Virus record (IMG/VR): IMGVR_UViG_3300029319_000169
Location: 1 to 36,856 of that record
Reading direction: 5' to 3' (one strand)
Length of the DNA stretch: 36,856 nt
Source: a virus
Shown here: piece by piece, positions 2,738 to 31,638 of the stretch
Numbering within the stretch: the stretch's first letter is position 1
Layout of the letters: each line of letters starts with the position of its first letter
Translations under genes and position numbers: made by a program
Notes under the pieces: generated by a model
The model's input: the letters and a program-made list of their open reading frames with translations, nothing else
Told to the model about the DNA's origin: nothing
Database searches by the model: none

Positions 2738-2765
2738 TATTTATACTCCTTGTTTATTTACCTAT

Positions 2766-2793
2766 ATTATATAACATTGGTATTCTCTGTCAA
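2766..2793 (-). promoter_or_regulatory. Consensus sigma70 promoter, TTGACA-N16-TATAAT (repeat copy 1)
   Basis: Both hexamers match the sigma70 consensus perfectly on the minus strand: TTGACA at 2788-2793 and TATAAT at 2766-2771, spacer 16. The surrounding block of about 55 bases (TGATATTTGACA through to the AAGGAG ribosome binding site) is almost identical to that at 3021-3048 and similar to that at 3600-3627. It drives the gene at 2426-2737. Confidence 0.8.
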
Positions 2794-2800
2794 ATATCAG

Positions 2801-2992
2801 TTAAACTATCCTGTATCCTTGATCCGATATGAAATCCAAGGCAGACTGCTCAATCTCATCCGCCATCTCAGGACAATAATCTGAATCTGAACCATCAGAA
2901 AACTTATCTACCCAACCGAGAGACTCAGCAAAATCTAGGGTAGGTCCGAATCCGTCATACACATAATACTTAGCAAACTCTTCAGATACCAT
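2801..2992 (-). CDS. Hypothetical acidic protein, 63 aa
   Basis: Acidic protein beginning MVSEEFAKYYVYDGFGPTLD, without a recognised domain. AAGGAGG stands 7 bases before the ATG. It is a single-gene unit between two near-identical promoters (3021-3048 upstream, 2766-2793 downstream). This promoter-gene cassette pattern resembles independently acquired accessory genes. Function unknown. Confidence 0.65.
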   Translation of the reverse strand: MVSEEFAKYYVYDGFGPTLDFAESLGWVDKFSDGSDSDYCPEMADEIEQSALDFISDQGYRIV

Positions 2993-3020
2993 CTCACTTC
3001 CTCCTTGCTTATTTACCTAT

Positions 3021-3048
3021 ATTATATAAAACTGGTATTCTCTGTCAA
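3021..3048 (-). promoter_or_regulatory. Consensus sigma70 promoter, TTGACA-N16-TATAAT (repeat copy 2)
   Basis: TTGACA at 3043-3048 and TATAAT at 3021-3026 on the minus strand, 16-base spacer. The spacer and flanks are nearly the same as in the copy at 2766-2793. It lies directly after the stop of the gene at 3052-3279 and drives the gene at 2801-2992. Confidence 0.8.
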
Positions 3049-3051
3049 ATA

Positions 3052-3279
3052 TCAGTCATAACCATACATCATCATATCTTCGTACTCTTCCGGGTGCATC
3101 ATAGGAACAGATAAGTTATTGAAAACCTCACGCTCAACAAAGTCATACTCTCTTGACGGAAGAAAATGTGCGTGACCACTAATCTCATTAGTAATCTCGT
3201 CCCTGCACTGCACACCGCGTAGAATGTTTGCGATGTCTTTTGCCATAGCTACCAACTCATTATATTTTTCGTCTGTCAT
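3052..3279 (-). CDS. Hypothetical protein, 75 aa
   Basis: Acidic helical protein (MTDEKYNELVAMAKDIANIL at the start) ending in a methionine- and tyrosine-rich tail. AAAGGA lies 7 bases upstream of the ATG. Second gene of the unit driven by the promoter at 3600-3627. No family recognised. Confidence 0.6.
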   Translation of the reverse strand: MTDEKYNELVAMAKDIANILRGVQCRDEITNEISGHAHFLPSREYDFVEREVFNNLSVPMMHPEEYEDMMMYGYD

Positions 3280-3295
3280 AATTTATCCTTTAAGT

Positions 3296-3571
3296 TTACC
3301 AGTCACTTGGATCTGGAGTGTTTTCCTCTATTAACTTTACTTGGTTTTCATAAATGTATTCTTCAACAGCATCCCACATTTTTGTAAATACAGGATGCTC
3401 GCTCAGGTTCTTACGAGTAATCTCAAAACCAAAGAATTCAATACTATCCAACTCAAACTCTGGGCCTTCTGGCGGTTGAATTGCTTGACCTGACCTGTCA
3501 TAGCCGATACCAACACCCTTACTTGTTTGAGTAAAAGAAAACTCAATATATTCTTCCATTGAACCGTACAT
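3296..3571 (-). CDS. Hypothetical protein, 91 aa
   Basis: Acidic protein (MYGSMEEYIEFSFTQTSKGV at the start) with a glycine-rich segment near residue 20 and several aromatic residues. GTGAGG precedes the ATG by 6 bases. First gene after the promoter at 3600-3627. No membrane segment or metal motif; function unknown. Confidence 0.65.
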   Translation of the reverse strand: MYGSMEEYIEFSFTQTSKGVGIGYDRSGQAIQPPEGPEFELDSIEFFGFEITRKNLSEHPVFTKMWDAVEEYIYENQVKLIEENTPDPSDW

Positions 3572-3599
3572 AAATACCTCACTTGTTTTGTATACCCAT

Positions 3600-3627
3600 A
3601 TTATATAAAACTGGTACTACCTGTCAA
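3600..3627 (-). promoter_or_regulatory. Consensus sigma70 promoter, TTGACA-N16-TATAAT (repeat copy 3)
   Basis: TTGACA at 3622-3627 and TATAAT at 3600-3605 on the minus strand, 16-base spacer. It shares TGATATTTGACAG upstream and most of the spacer (TACCAGTTTTA) with the two promoters to its left, but differs after the -10. The stop of the gene at 3631-4755 abuts it. It drives 3296-3571 and 3052-3279. Confidence 0.8.
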
Positions 3628-3630
3628 ATA

Positions 3631-4755
3631 TCATTCTCTAATGCATTCCTGGCTATTGATTGGACTATACAAACTAAAGAAAAGCGTATCTGAGTCCAAC
3701 CATCGGTGGTACACAGGTGCATTGGCTTGTCCAGTTTTAATTAAAGACCTCATAAAGTCCAAAACGTAGTCTTCATCAACAGTTTTGTTTAGAATTAGAG
3801 CATGTAAAGCAGCAATCCTACCAAGTTTGTCTGGAGAAAATACATCTTCACTCAACTCATACTCGACTCGATCACTCTCCTGACACGTACCTAGAATTTC
3901 CAAAGCGTAGGCTTGAGCACTGCTATACTTTGGACTATTCAAAAAAGCATAAGTCAAGTCACGAGTCCATTTCTCACATTCCAAAGCATCAAGCCAATCG
4001 TCCAAGTTAGGTAAAAACCCACTGATGCCAGCAGTTTGTTTTGACTCAGGAAACTTGTCTTTAGAAACTCCAGCTTGTTCAAAAGCTGTACGACACAAGA
4101 CGTTAGCTAAAAGTCTCTGACGTACATGAGCATCGACGACTGGTTTGAAAGACTCCTCAAAAACCTGAGTGCAAAGTTTACGTACAAACTCTTTGATTTT
4201 AGGATGTTTACCACCATTCACATCGACGTTGAAACTATGTACAAGCTGATGGTACTCAACAGAGTCGATAAAGTCTGATTGCTCAACCAAAACCCTTTCT
4301 TCAGACTGTGTCGGCCAGCCAAACCCATCCTCTGGAAGTTCTTCAAAAAGGTCAACTTTGTATATTTTCCAAATTACCCTCTGGCCATCACCTTCGGATT
4401 GATGTTTTTCAATAAATTTATTCTTTTCAGAAATAGCATCATCAAGGTTTTGGTACAGAAAATCACCTTCTTTGACCTTAGAGTCATTATCTCCACTCAT
4501 ACGAATGTTCACTTCAAACGGTGGGAGGCGATGACTCAACACAGAGTCGCTTGGGAAAACACCACGTTGGTCGCGACATGCATCCCAAAGCATATCCCAG
4601 TCGATCAAAGCAAGAGCACTCGTGTATTGAATCTCAGTGTCATAGTCTGGAAAAAACATATACATAATATCATTACGCCACCACGAATCTTCAGCCGTTT
4701 TTGGTGCAATGATTGCAAGAACTTCATAACCAGTAAGATAATTGTTTCTCTTCAT
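3631..4755 (-). CDS. Large orphan protein, 374 aa, unknown function
   Basis: By far the largest gene in the left accessory region. It is soluble and acidic with no signal peptide or membrane segment. The N-terminal 80 residues are tryptophan- and aspartate-rich (around SWWRNDIMYMFFPDYD). The middle has a long helical stretch, and residues about 240-374 look all-helical, possibly repeat-like. I see no nucleotide-binding, nuclease or protease motif. GAGAGG precedes the ATG by 6 bases. It follows the gene at 4759-5247 by 3 bases, so it belongs to the operon started at 6133-6160. Confidence 0.7.
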   Translation of the reverse strand: MKRNNYLTGYEVLAIIAPKTAEDSWWRNDIMYMFFPDYDTEIQYTSALALIDWDMLWDACRDQRGVFPSDSVLSHRLPPFEVNIRMSGDNDSKVKEGDFLYQNLDDAISEKNKFIEKHQSEGDGQRVIWKIYKVDLFEELPEDGFGWPTQSEERVLVEQSDFIDSVEYHQLVHSFNVDVNGGKHPKIKEFVRKLCTQVFEESFKPVVDAHVRQRLLANVLCRTAFEQAGVSKDKFPESKQTAGISGFLPNLDDWLDALECEKWTRDLTYAFLNSPKYSSAQAYALEILGTCQESDRVEYELSEDVFSPDKLGRIAALHALILNKTVDEDYVLDFMRSLIKTGQANAPVYHRWLDSDTLFFSLYSPINSQECIRE

Positions 4756-26859: not shown

Positions 26860-26888
26860 AGTGTAGTCTAAAGAGACGCCTTAGTCAA
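26860..26888 (-). promoter_or_regulatory. Sigma70 promoter TTGACT-N17-TACACT for the polymerase operon
   Basis: TTGACT at 26883-26888 (overlapping the last codons of the primase gene) and TACACT at 26860-26865 on the minus strand, 17-base spacer. The first gene is the RHH protein, followed by the polymerase and the recombination genes. The -10 match is moderate. Confidence 0.55.
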
Positions 26889-27880
26889 GAAAAATGTTCC
26901 AGCTTAAACATTTGATATGCCACACTATTCACAGGCACTGATTCACTTAACAACTTATAATTTTCATCCTCAGATCTTTCCCCAGCATCTTTACCATCAG
27001 AGTGCAAAACTACAAAGCATTCTGCCTGTAATTTTTTACTGTACTGCTCGACTTGTGGGTACGCATCCAGGTCCCAATAAAAAATAACTTTCTTGAATTC
27101 GTTAAGCATGCTCATCTGACGGCGGGAAAGCGACTTGCCAAATGTCGCCACTGAGGGCGCAACCTTGGACGAGCTAATCGCGTCAAAGACACCTTCAGTA
27201 ACTACCACCAGGTCATCAGTCAAACCGTCTGAGTTAAACAAGAAGTCAGACTGCTTGTTTCCCGTGGGATTCAAATACTTTCTATCACTATCCCCAAATA
27301 AATCTCTTGCCACAAACGTTACTAACGACCCCTCGTGATAACAAGGCACCACTATTCGGCCAGAGTACGGCCCTTGATAACAAAATCGTATATCAAACTC
27401 CTGTATCGTTTCATCATCTAAACCTCTCATATTCAAATACCGTCTTGAGACACGGAGCATGTTGTCTACGCTAGGAATGTCTGTCTCCTCTAAAACAGGT
27501 ACAAACTCAGGACCAAAAGACAAACACTTGTAGTTGAATTGAAAGACCTCTTCTTCTTCAAAAATTTCATCGATGATATCGTCAACGTCTAACCCTGGGT
27601 CAGATACAAAAGCCCCGTCCTCTGCCATCGATAATACTTCGTTAATCGATAACCCTTCTAATTCAGAAATAAATTTTACTGGAGATTTAGAGTCATACTT
27701 ACATTTTTGACAGTACGGAAGACCCGCAGACAAGAGGATGTACAGGTGGCCTTTGGTGTCATTACAAAAAGGACAATCAACTCGTATCCTGTCTTCATTA
27801 GAAGTAGAATAAGTTTGAGGAAACTTTTTATAGACATAGCTCGTAAAGTCAAAATTCGATAAAAACTCTTTTCTTTTCAT
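26885..27880 (-). CDS. DnaG-type primase
   Basis: 331 residues. Zinc-binding domain with CPFC (C36, C39) and CQKC (C57, C60); then a TOPRIM catalytic core with VVVTEGVFDAI (E229) and IFYWDLDAY (D270, D272). It synthesises RNA primers for the polymerase and works with the DnaB-like helicase at 28380-29690. The start codon overlaps the stop of the SprT-like gene (ATGA) without a clear ribosome binding site, so it is translationally coupled. It ends just at the promoter of the next operon. Confidence 0.9.
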   Translation of the reverse strand: MKRKEFLSNFDFTSYVYKKFPQTYSTSNEDRIRVDCPFCNDTKGHLYILLSAGLPYCQKCKYDSKSPVKFISELEGLSINEVLSMAEDGAFVSDPGLDVDDIIDEIFEEEEVFQFNYKCLSFGPEFVPVLEETDIPSVDNMLRVSRRYLNMRGLDDETIQEFDIRFCYQGPYSGRIVVPCYHEGSLVTFVARDLFGDSDRKYLNPTGNKQSDFLFNSDGLTDDLVVVTEGVFDAISSSKVAPSVATFGKSLSRRQMSMLNEFKKVIFYWDLDAYPQVEQYSKKLQAECFVVLHSDGKDAGERSEDENYKLLSESVPVNSVAYQMFKLEHFS

Positions 27881-28379: not shown

Positions 28380-29690
28380 TTATAAAGCATCATAAAATTT
28401 ACCATGAGCAAAGTTAGTGCTTATGGTCACCTCCGTTCCTGAAGTACCGTCCCTGTTTTTAGCCAGGAACAGTCGCATCTCCTGTTGCTCCTTCTCTTTC
28501 TTATTTTGACAAAGACCAACAATGACATCAGCAATCATTGCCTTACCAAAATCCTCAGAGATATCAGCCACAGTAACTTGAGATTTGCTTAGAGAGGCTC
28601 TATTGGCCTGAGAGGCAGTCCAAATCGGTATCTGCTCATCTACGGCCCACCCTCGTAAAGTTTTGTATATATAAGATTGATTATGTCTTTCCTCACTAAA
28701 TGTCTGGCCGGACTTCAACAAGTCTGCGTAGTCCACAACCACGAAGTCTGGGAAAAAGCCAGTCCTTCTCAGGTTGTCAGCGTAGTTTCTTAGGTTATCA
28801 ACACTCACAGACTTCGTCGGATACTCCTTGATGTGAACGTTCCCTATCGTCTCATCATTCAACATCTCCAATAGACGCCTCTCAACCATCTCAGGACGCT
28901 CCATCGTCTCTGTGCTGGTCATGTTAGATACGCTCATATCAAAACGGTCTAGATACCTATCCTCACTCATCTCCAGCGTAAAGATAATACCCTTCAAACC
29001 TTTGAGCATGTTGAACTCAGCGATGTGCTTCAAGAACATCGACTTACCACGGTTAGTAGGAGCCAGGATTACCCCCAACTCCTTCTCCCCAAGACCTCCA
29101 CCTCTCAGGAAACTGTCTAACTCCAGAATACCTGTAGGGACAATTCTACGCTTAACAGAGCGCCTGCTTATCCTGTCCTGGTACCCTTCTACGTCTGGGT
29201 ACGTCTGCCCGGTTTTAAACTGTATATCGGCCTTCTGAAACGCTTCGATGAAAACCTTCGGTATGTCTTCATACCCACCCTTCTGATAGACGGCTTGGGC
29301 TTTGACGAATGCTTCCTTCATCAAATTCTTTTTAACAAAGGTCACTACCCTTGCTTCGATGTACCCTGCGTCGGATAGGTCGTCCTCACACATGAAGTTG
29401 TACAACTCCTGAAAGAACTTCACTCTCGCTCGGTCTATCTCACCTTTGTTAATTGATATCTTGATTCGATCTATCAAAGACCTCTTCGTAATGATTGCCC
29501 TGGTGTTTCTAAAATGCGTTCGCATCGTAGCGTACATCCAAGACAAGTCTTTATCTGAAAAGTATTTCGGAGATAAGTTGTCACTTGCGTATGCCAAAAA
29601 CCTCAAGTTCTTGTACATCAATGACAGTATACCTTTTTGAAAATCTCTATCGAATTCTTCTTTTAAGTTCCCCAGAATTTCTGCTTCCAT
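28380..29690 (-). CDS. Replicative DNA helicase, DnaB-like
   Basis: 436 residues. A helical N-terminal domain (1-150), a linker, then a RecA-fold motor: Walker A APTNRGKSMF (210-219), LEMSEDRYLDRF (H1a-like, 239-250), Walker B FVVVDYADLL (D320), SQANRAS (sensor) and a C-terminal arginine-finger region (AKNRDGTSG). It unwinds DNA at the fork with the primase downstream. AAGGCG lies just before the ATG. The 429-residue protein encoded immediately upstream may be its loader. Confidence 0.92.
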   Translation of the reverse strand: MEAEILGNLKEEFDRDFQKGILSLMYKNLRFLAYASDNLSPKYFSDKDLSWMYATMRTHFRNTRAIITKRSLIDRIKISINKGEIDRARVKFFQELYNFMCEDDLSDAGYIEARVVTFVKKNLMKEAFVKAQAVYQKGGYEDIPKVFIEAFQKADIQFKTGQTYPDVEGYQDRISRRSVKRRIVPTGILELDSFLRGGGLGEKELGVILAPTNRGKSMFLKHIAEFNMLKGLKGIIFTLEMSEDRYLDRFDMSVSNMTSTETMERPEMVERRLLEMLNDETIGNVHIKEYPTKSVSVDNLRNYADNLRRTGFFPDFVVVDYADLLKSGQTFSEERHNQSYIYKTLRGWAVDEQIPIWTASQANRASLSKSQVTVADISEDFGKAMIADVIVGLCQNKKEKEQQEMRLFLAKNRDGTSGTEVTISTNFAHGKFYDAL

Positions 29691-29695
29691 GCGCC

Positions 29696-30985
29696 TTATT
29701 CTCTATACGATTTTATCTTTCTATAAAAACCCATCTTCTTATCTTCTTTGCCCCATGCCTGTTCATCGACAAGCTCTTGGTACAGCGGAAGACTTTTTAA
29801 ATACTGCCAAGGGATATACCCACTCTCTGGATTCCCCAAAATCCAAAGAACCTGCTTTCTAGACAACCCAAGTGTTTGCATTTGATGATTGATCATGTCC
29901 TCGTATATCTCAACCATATTTGCATTAGGAGTCTCAATTTTCACTTCACTACGCTTTGTTCGATACGCCTGTTCGACATTATCAACACCAGCTTCAAAGT
30001 AATTCAGTTCACGTTTAAATTTTTCACAATAACTTTTGTACCTACCTACTGAATTCCATGTAGAGTTCAAGGAAACGATGTACGATATGTTAGGAGCACT
30101 ACCTCTCCAACTGTCGTGGTAATGGTACTGAGCTTCTACAAAACGACGGACATCCAAGCCGTAGTGCTTACAGATCGCCGCTCCTAAAACATACTTGTCA
30201 AACGTTCTACGCTTCTTCGACAACACGCCGTTACGCAATAATCTGTAGTAGGGCTGGTCGTTGTAGTCCTGTATCTTCTTCTCACAGGCTTTAACAAATT
30301 CAATAACTTCACTACCGATGACAGTAACTTTCTTAGTGTGAATTTCAGCGACAAACTCATCATCGCTCTGTACGATATCATCAGGGTTATGGCTCGATTT
30401 TCTAGACCTCGATTTGAAAGCTGTAAACTGCTCTGACTCAGTATTTTTTACGCTCTTGTGCGATACGAACTCTTCTTGGTCAGAATTTCGCCGCTTTTTG
30501 TTGTCATCATCGTCCGGGTCTGGAGATAATACTGTGTCTTTCAAATTACTCATCGAGACATTAACTCTGCTTTTTGAATTGTTAGTGACTGACGCCAATA
30601 AATTCGAACCTACAACACCATCCAAAGAAAGAAAAGGCCAAAGAAATAATCCTGACCATTCTTCTTGAGAGAAGACGGATTGTGACAAGCCCGTAGGGCG
30701 CGGCGAAAATTCGTCTTTATCCAACATAGCCTGGAACGAATCAAACACGTAGTGTTTGATGAGAGTAAGGATTTGTTGGATCAATAAAACTATATTTAAA
30801 ACAATCTTACTAAAAGAAAAACCCCTATATACTACGTATATAGGGTCAAAAAGAAAACGGGTTCTTTTTGACTGGATTCGATCAAGACCCTCAGAAAAAT
30901 AACTCTTGACAATACCAGGAAGGTCGCCTGATAATCCTAAACATGTTGTTGCTTCGGCTGCGATGTGCGCTGTGCTTGTTGGCAT
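29696..30985 (-). CDS. Unknown protein upstream of the helicase, up to 429 aa; start uncertain
   Basis: The C-terminal 220 residues (from about 210) are a soluble helical domain (KYVLGAAICKHYGLDVRRFV; QTLGLSRKQVLWILGNPESG) that I do not recognise. Place right before DnaB suggests a helicase loader or initiator. Residues 145-205 are low-complexity and acidic/basic. The first 140 codons are peculiar: they run through four strong inverted repeats (30689-30872) and give a T-rich, unlikely protein, so translation may begin later, at the ATG at residue 87 or 145. The ATG at 30985 has GGGGA 4 bases upstream. The 5' end is covered by a likely antisense RNA. Confidence 0.55.
   Translation of the reverse strand: MPTSTAHIAAEATTCLGLSGDLPGIVKSYFSEGLDRIQSKRTRFLFDPIYVVYRGFSFSKIVLNIVLLIQQILTLIKHYVFDSFQAMLDKDEFSPRPTGLSQSVFSQEEWSGLFLWPFLSLDGVVGSNLLASVTNNSKSRVNVSMSNLKDTVLSPDPDDDDNKKRRNSDQEEFVSHKSVKNTESEQFTAFKSRSRKSSHNPDDIVQSDDEFVAEIHTKKVTVIGSEVIEFVKACEKKIQDYNDQPYYRLLRNGVLSKKRRTFDKYVLGAAICKHYGLDVRRFVEAQYHYHDSWRGSAPNISYIVSLNSTWNSVGRYKSYCEKFKRELNYFEAGVDNVEQAYRTKRSEVKIETPNANMVEIYEDMINHQMQTLGLSRKQVLWILGNPESGYIPWQYLKSLPLYQELVDEQAWGKEDKKMGFYRKIKSYRE
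30689..30872. repeat. Cluster of short-loop inverted repeats
   Basis: Four perfect inverted repeats within 184 bases: GCCC-GTA-GGGC (30689-30699), a 9-bp stem with GTA loop (30740-30760, ATCAAACAC / GTGTTTGAT), a 10-bp stem with TAC loop (30823-30845, CCCCTATATAC / GTATATAGGG less the outer base), and an 11-bp stem with a 6-base loop (30845-30872, GTCAAAAAGAA / TTCTTTTTGAC). On the minus strand the 10-bp stem is followed by GGTTTTTCTTTT. They occupy the 5' part of the unknown gene upstream of the helicase. Confidence 0.75.
30906..30935 (+). promoter_or_regulatory. Plus-strand sigma70 promoter TTGACA-N18-GATAAT
   Basis: TTGACA at 30906-30911 and GATAAT at 30930-30935 on the plus strand, 18-base spacer. 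It is the only strong plus-strand promoter I found in a window whose genes are all on the minus strand. RNA would start near 30942 and meet the plus-strand terminator ending at 31063. Confidence 0.6.
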
Positions 30986-31063
30986 TGTTCCCCAGACCTT
31001 GTCAATGAACAGTTTATACCTTTTAACCCCGGCCCTTAACCCCCTTAGGTGCCGGGGTTTTTT
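30942..31063 (+). ncRNA. Candidate antisense RNA over the start of the helicase operon
   Basis: A transcript of about 120 nt is defined by a plus-strand promoter (30906-30935) and an intrinsic terminator (31025-31063). It is complementary to the leader, ribosome binding site and first 15 codons of the gene at 29696-30985, whose own promoter is at 31107-31135. It could control translation of that operon. It also has a 21-codon frame beginning ATG at 30943-30945 (MLLLRLRCALCLLALFPRPC), hydrophobic and leaderless, which may be fortuitous. Expression is not shown by sequence alone. Confidence 0.55.
31025..31063 (+). terminator. Strong intrinsic terminator on the plus strand
   Basis: AACCCCGGC / GCCGGGGTT, a 9-bp GC-rich stem with a 17-base loop, followed by TTTTTT on the plus strand. 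On the minus strand the stem is preceded by A residues and followed by TTAAAAGG, so it is not a terminator in the direction of the genes but would form a stable hairpin in their leader RNA. Confidence 0.8.
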
Positions 31064-31106
31064 ATAACTAATTGATTTGAAATAACAAATTGCAATCAGT
31101 TCGATA

Positions 31107-31135
31107 ACAGTAGATCAAAAAATTCTTTTCGTCAA
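31107..31135 (-). promoter_or_regulatory. Sigma70 promoter TTGACG-N17-TACTGT for the helicase-primase operon
   Basis: TTGACG at 31130-31135 and TACTGT at 31107-31112 on the minus strand, 17-base spacer. The leader of about 115 bases contains the hairpin of the opposing terminator and is covered by the candidate antisense RNA. It should drive the genes from 30985 down to the primase. Confidence 0.6.
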
Positions 31136-31170: not shown

Positions 31171-31638
31171 TTAGCTCTTTACGATATTCTCGTAAGCGTC
31201 TTTTATAGTCTTGAATTTGTCTGCATTCGGAGCATCGCCATCTGGGTGATAATGTTTAGCAAGGGCTTTGTATGCTGCTTTTACAATAAAATCAGGAGCC
31301 GAGTCTAACAGGTAAAGCTCCGAATACTTTGAGGTAAATTTTACCTCGTTTTTGATAACGTTTTTACTTTTTTTATAATTATCTTGTAAAACATCTTGTA
31401 TAATTTTTTGATAGTTTATTGGGAGAGAACTTGATTCAATGTGGTTAAAAAGATGTCTTGAAAAAGCAACAACATCTGGGAGAGAATCTGGCACAATCAC
31501 CCAGCAAGATTTTTTAGAAAACCAAGTTCGATTTGATTGTGGTATAGAGCTAGATAAGAAACTTTTTAAATCTTCGTTTTTAAATAAAAGCTCTATTGTA
31601 TCATTCGAGTCATTATAATATAATGTTAGTTTACTCAA
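31171..31638 (-). CDS. J-domain protein with novel N-terminus, 155 aa
   Basis: The C-terminal 50 residues form a J domain: YSELYLLDSAPDFIVKAAYK, then ALAKHYHPDGD with the HPD triad at 131-133 and a final helix (FKTIKDAYENIV). J domains stimulate host DnaK ATPase, so the protein may bring the chaperone to a phage complex. The N-terminal 100 residues (MSKLTLYYNDSNDTIELLFK onwards) are unrecognised and would choose the client. The start is a TTG at 31636-31638 that overlaps the previous stop (TTGA); a GTG at 31719 would lie deep in that gene. Confidence 0.7.
   Translation of the reverse strand: MSKLTLYYNDSNDTIELLFKNEDLKSFLSSSIPQSNRTWFSKKSCWVIVPDSLPDVVAFSRHLFNHIESSSLPINYQKIIQDVLQDNYKKSKNVIKNEVKFTSKYSELYLLDSAPDFIVKAAYKALAKHYHPDGDAPNADKFKTIKDAYENIVKS

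Follow-up and report, generated by a model that had tools for sequence, protein, structure and literature searches.

The plus strand at the head of this phage's replication operon probably specifies a constitutive cis-antisense RNA, about 122 nt long, that would block the start of translation of that operon. The window analysed here is the whole 36,856-nucleotide contig, a virus record, which encodes a terminase, DNA polymerase A, a UvsX-like recombinase, SbcC, SbcD, a DnaB-like helicase and a primase; the phage is likely to be virulent, a putative assignment. In the proposed mechanism, the antisense RNA would start in the first codons of the target gene, cross the ATG and then the ribosome site, and stop within the leader at a terminator of its own. 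Pairing between this RNA and the leader, probably begun at C-rich loops, would hide the ribosome site and reduce expression of the replication operon. By simple gene dosage, the amount of antisense RNA would also rise with the number of phage DNA copies, giving negative feedback or a delay. We infer the promoter, the RNA, the terminator and their conservation from sequence, while the production of the RNA, its inhibitory effect and the dosage feedback are deductions.

The elements of both strands lie close together. On the minus strand, the leader has a sense promoter, TTGACG-N17-TACTGT (31107-31135; -35 at 31135-31130, -10 at 31112-31107), and is followed by a ribosome site and start codon (30983-30993), with the ATG at 30985-30983 and GGGGA three bases upstream of it. 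The sequence of this minus-strand segment, GACAAGGTCTGGGGAACAATG, does not vary among the three close contigs. On the plus strand, the antisense promoter consists of TTGACA (30906-30911), an 18-base spacer and GATAAT (30930-30935), and faces the sense promoter at a distance of about 170 nt. The plus-strand intrinsic terminator (31025-31063, -20.0 kcal/mol) has a bulged GC stem, in which 31025-31033 pairs with 31051-31059, and a run of T's at 31058-31063; it was missing from the program's terminator list because its loop exceeds the 8-base limit. The predicted antisense RNA (30942-31063, plus strand) covers both the GGGGA and the ATG, and ends 108 nt short of the end of the dnaJ-like gene at 31171. 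An earlier note on this DNA had placed the two promoters, the plus-strand terminator and the ATG at these same coordinates, all of which proved correct.

Taken by itself, the antisense promoter match is not significant, since promoter-like sites occur at the level expected by chance: 11 were seen between 28 and 34 kb against 12.5 expected from shuffles, and, counting both strands of the whole window, about one site with at least 11 of 12 matches is expected. The promoter scan was therefore discarded as evidence on its own. A second plus-strand promoter-like site, at 31352, was rejected; it lies within coding sequence and its -35 is, by eye, not kept in L002. Elsewhere in the window, a 56-nt repeat occurs three times at positions 2746-3635; every copy carries a perfect minus-strand TTGACA-N16-TATAAT, and these sites precede small genes at 3627, 3048 and 2793. 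Judged by these repeats, promoters of this type are used by the phage.

Two IMG/VR contigs retain the whole region, L001/L006 (83% protein identity) and L002/L007 (61%). In both, the antisense -35, spacer and -10 are identical to those of the window except for one spacer base in L006, and about 40 nt around and upstream of the sense -35 are also conserved. The earlier note had proposed that an alignment of relatives should find both antisense promoter and terminator kept, and this is the case in L006 and L007. Searches of IMG/VR for further copies of the loops or of the conserved leader returned the same two contigs and the unrelated L017 only.

The predicted antisense RNA folds with a minimum free energy of -43.9 kcal/mol (z -4.67, exact dinucleotide shuffles) into three hairpins: hairpin 1 (30942-30967) with a cUUCGg loop, hairpin 2 (30969-31013) with a CCCCA loop, and hairpin 3 (31025-31059). 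All 39 pairs form on the plus-strand RNA and 30 of the 39 on the minus strand, as the other nine are G·U. In five of six contigs (the window and its close and more distant relatives) folding is more favourable for the antisense than for the sense strand, with L027 slightly favouring sense; this comparison used first-order resampling shuffles, which give smaller z values than exact dinucleotide shuffles. Three pairs of the terminator stem are changed on both sides between the window and L007. These compensatory pairs vanish on shifting the partners by one column and are equalled in 14 of 500 shuffles, in a covariation test based on three close sequences (the window, L006 and L007). Conservation is highest in the terminator loop, TAACCCCCTTAGGT, which the window and L007 share exactly and which has a single base difference in L006. 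In L007, hairpin 1 has been lost as a whole through a 30-nt deletion that spares hairpins 2 and 3. No Rfam family matched the antisense RNA at the gathering score, and a relaxed E-value gave chance-level matches only.

Six contigs from four diverged lineages (the window with L006 and L007; L027; L029; L068) have a common arrangement at the start of the gene that precedes the DnaB helicase. It comprises a sense promoter, an antisense terminator, a ribosome site with ATG and, within the first codons, an antisense promoter. The proteins of L027, L029 and L068 are 33-37% identical to that of the window in their conserved part, and a BLASTP comparison of the N-termini of the window and L027 proteins found no homology. 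The sense promoter, TTGAC[GA]-N17/18-TAnnnT, is present in all six contigs, 112-158 nt ahead of the ATG. In L027, L029 and L068 the antisense strand carries a GC hairpin and T-run with a predicted energy of -16 to -27 kcal/mol, and the antisense promoters lie 35-46 nt into the gene (TTGACA-17-TAGATT in L027, TTGCAA-16-TATAAT in L029 and TTGACT-17-TAGCAT in L068, the last with only 9 of 12 matches and P 0.06 in shuffles). Every homologous gene start tested has both an antisense promoter and an antisense terminator. The same contigs supplied 146 control gene starts. An antisense promoter with at least 10 matches is found at none of them, and an antisense terminator of -12 kcal/mol or lower at a single one; this one is an alternative start for the L068 gene itself, leaving 0 of the 145 others. 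It is these comparative controls that make the pair of antisense elements significant. The earlier note's prediction of a short plus-strand RNA with its own promoter and terminator, lying opposite the leader, the ribosome site and the first codons at the operon head, is upheld, and the same architecture recurs in three further lineages.

The conserved hairpin could instead be a 5' leader structure of the sense message, acting in message stability or control of the ribosome site, with a coincidental plus-strand promoter. It lies 20-45 nt past the predicted sense start in every lineage, and stem pairs by themselves do not distinguish the strands. We nevertheless regard this explanation as unlikely, given that every lineage has a T-run after the stem on the antisense strand, that hairpins 1 and 2 require G·U pairs available on the plus strand only, and that four lineages have antisense promoters in the same position.

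It is also conceivable that the product is a trans-acting small RNA whose C-rich loops target other messages, as pairing with ribosome sites would be feasible for the conserved loops CCCCA and ACCCCCUU. This seems very improbable: no sequence is common to the RNAs of the different lineages, and each matches the ribosome site of its own gene, in L027, L029 and L068 spanning its own leader as well. That the layout persists while the sequence differs argues for an RNA acting on its own locus, as the cis-antisense explanation proposes.

The earlier note took the target to be a minus-strand gene starting at 30985, and here our analysis disagrees. Between the window and L001, codons 1-144 (30554-30985, minus strand) differ at 11, 17 and 15 first, second and third positions, compared with 26, 21 and 106 in the rest of the open reading frame 29696-30985 (Fisher p 7e-5); the contrast holds outside the antisense unit and the internal terminator described below (p 0.001). 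Against L002, the same codons show 34, 43 and 37 differences at the three positions. In the AlphaFold model of this open reading frame, residues 1-197 mostly have pLDDT below 50, whereas the remainder folds. An ordinary gene from the first codon was rejected on these two grounds, and the conserved part of the protein starts near codon 145 (30553). As codons 1-144 lack amino-acid selection, what the antisense RNA overlaps is the beginning of an open leader frame. This frame is open in the window, L006 and L007, with indels of 30, 6 and 3 nt. The probability of an open 144-codon frame by chance is about 0.001, and that of its surviving the L007 divergence without constraint is 0.012. The simplest reading is that the leader is translated and the peptide itself is unimportant. 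It is possible that the true gene begins at 30553 and the leader is untranslated, although there is no good ribosome site at that position and the upstream frame has been held open.

Inside the leader frame lies a sense-strand intrinsic terminator, CCCTATATACGTAGTATATAGGGGTTTTTCTTTT (30811-30845, minus strand; hairpin 30845-30823), which L006 and L007 share without change in stem or T-run. This raises the prospect of an antisense-triggered attenuation that would extend the main explanation for the window clade, and that may cause premature termination before the replication genes. Under such a translation-coupled switch, ribosomes entering the leader would prevent the 30845-30823 hairpin from forming, as in pyrBI-type attenuation, while antisense RNA would shut ribosomes out of the otherwise meaningless frame so that the terminator fires before the helicase and primase genes. 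The frame from 30985 is open across the terminator in all three contigs even though its amino acids are unselected, and the ribosome site, ATG and internal terminator are identical in the three. We hold this extension to be possible but doubtful. A terminator with the same flanks is found directly 3' of the dnaJ-like gene in five relatives that lack the leader (L010, L011, L013-L015), so it may be an older operon terminator that only ends the upstream transcript. Neither an alternative antiterminator fold or pairing in the window nor a comparable sense terminator within the frame of L027, L029 or L068 was found.

Further inside the same frame, positions 30781-30719 form a conserved imperfect palindrome (ATCCAACA ... 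CAAACACTACGTGTTTG ... TGTTGGAT; minimum free energy -21.6 kcal/mol, z -4.4), also present in L006 and L007, which could be part of an origin. The act of plus-strand transcription might matter in itself, through collision of polymerases or through an RNA serving to prime or open an origin of replication close to the start of the gene. The close spacing of the facing promoters and the palindromes just inside the gene would fit this, as would the lambda origin, which lies in gene O beside oop (PMC6022878, PMC5869508). Collision requires neither a precisely folded RNA with compensatory changes nor a terminator before the sense promoter, and we consider it improbable that transcription rather than the RNA is what acts. 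Translational block by the antisense RNA remains our preferred explanation.

The operon downstream of the leader identifies the genes that would be affected. It includes a DnaB-like replicative helicase (28380-29690, minus strand; Pfam DnaB_C E 3.8e-22, phrog_19 E 3.1e-71) and a DNA primase (26885-27880, minus strand; phrog_47 E 6.9e-43). The nearest known matches of the window helicase are in SPO1-group phages, at about 32% identity, and the gene order helicase, gp20.1, DnaB is as in SPO1 (around gp20.1-21.1). The conserved coding part of the target gene (29696-30553, minus strand) shows third-position bias, occupies the SPO1 gp20.1 position before DnaB and has homologues in 11 contigs; it is predicted to be a replication protein, and this assignment is probable. 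The L068 protein model contains a winged-helix-like part of modest confidence, and a structure search with it gave no significant match. As a separate observation, the gp20.1-like N-terminus encoded at 2284-2700 of L029 has a sub-threshold similarity (E 0.055) to the lambda-type replication protein O (Phage_rep_O). An annotated phage collection contained neither similar DNA nor a gp20.1-like protein, and no relatives of the window were found among bacterial genomes.

The earlier note had counted relatives that keep the operon without the antisense promoter as evidence against its proposal, and five do exist. L010, L011 and L013-L015 keep the dnaJ-like gene, the gp20.1-like gene and DnaB, and lack the antisense promoter and such an antisense terminator. 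The sense promoter, the leader and the gene's N-terminal portion are missing as well. The five contigs group in one nested clade, and their condition reads as a single loss. In the tree, the six carriers surround this clade with moderate supports of 83-91%, the deep branches being long; on these sequences the simplest history would be one ancestral unit and one loss. In the five contigs, the spacer between the dnaJ-like and gp20.1-like genes carries nested palindromes around CAGTCGCTnCGCTCC and GGCTCCCTnCGGGTCGCC, with flanking stems that vary between contigs. This looks like a conserved RNA or DNA structure occupying the position of the antisense unit.

Antisense systems of plasmids offer the closest comparisons. 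In CopA/CopT of plasmid R1, loops of the antisense RNA face complementary loops of the leader upstream of the replication gene, and translation of a leader frame matters. The window resembles this in having an antisense RNA opposite a replication-gene leader together with a leader frame; the sequence, host element and target protein are unrelated, and tap/repA coupling is a feature of R1. Like RNAs of the CopA and pMV158 RNAII kind, the predicted RNA has its own promoter on the opposite strand and its own intrinsic terminator, and covers the leader and ribosome site. RNAII of pMV158 is a short antisense RNA with a 3' terminator hairpin, directed at the start region of repB, whose translation it blocks (PMC4485353). 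The predicted RNA has the same kind of terminator and position, and by analogy most likely blocks the start of translation in the same way. The L027 and L068 RNAs match the pMV158 plan of a 5' tail and one hairpin, whereas the window RNA has three hairpins and belongs to a phage operon rather than to a plasmid with a rolling-circle initiator. RNAIII of pIP501, a 136-nt antisense RNA that faces the leader of a replication gene between convergent promoters, causes premature termination in that leader (PMC4981023). The window shares the facing RNA and the convergent promoters and, like L006 and L007, has a terminator between antisense region and replication gene, as in pIP501 and pT181 attenuation. 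Any attenuation in the window clade could therefore be comparable in outcome to that of pIP501. In pIP501 pairing alters the leader fold, whereas the window terminator lies within an open frame and a switch, if any, would more likely depend on the passage of ribosomes; no CopR-like gene was identified here.

Among phages, the lambda OOP RNA is a short antisense RNA beside the replication initiator gene O, with its promoter at or in O, that runs away from O to its own terminator, overlaps 52 bases of the upstream cII, acts on cII and leaves the O start uncovered (PMC5869508). In the window, the promoter lies in the target gene and the RNA likewise runs away from it to its own terminator. Unlike OOP, it does not reach the upstream dnaJ-like gene and covers the start site of the downstream gene. 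The earlier note called such an arrangement unusual before a phage DnaB-primase operon, a claim that has to be set against the precedent of lambda OOP (PMC5869508). No Rfam sequence match links OOP with the window RNA.

Antisense control of replication genes is a textbook feature of plasmids, where it holds copy number down. That large tailed phages keep a plasmid-like layout in front of a helicase-primase-polymerase operon points to RNA as a means by which phages with a replisome of their own, too, may meter or delay replication. The four lineages provide a ready comparative set.
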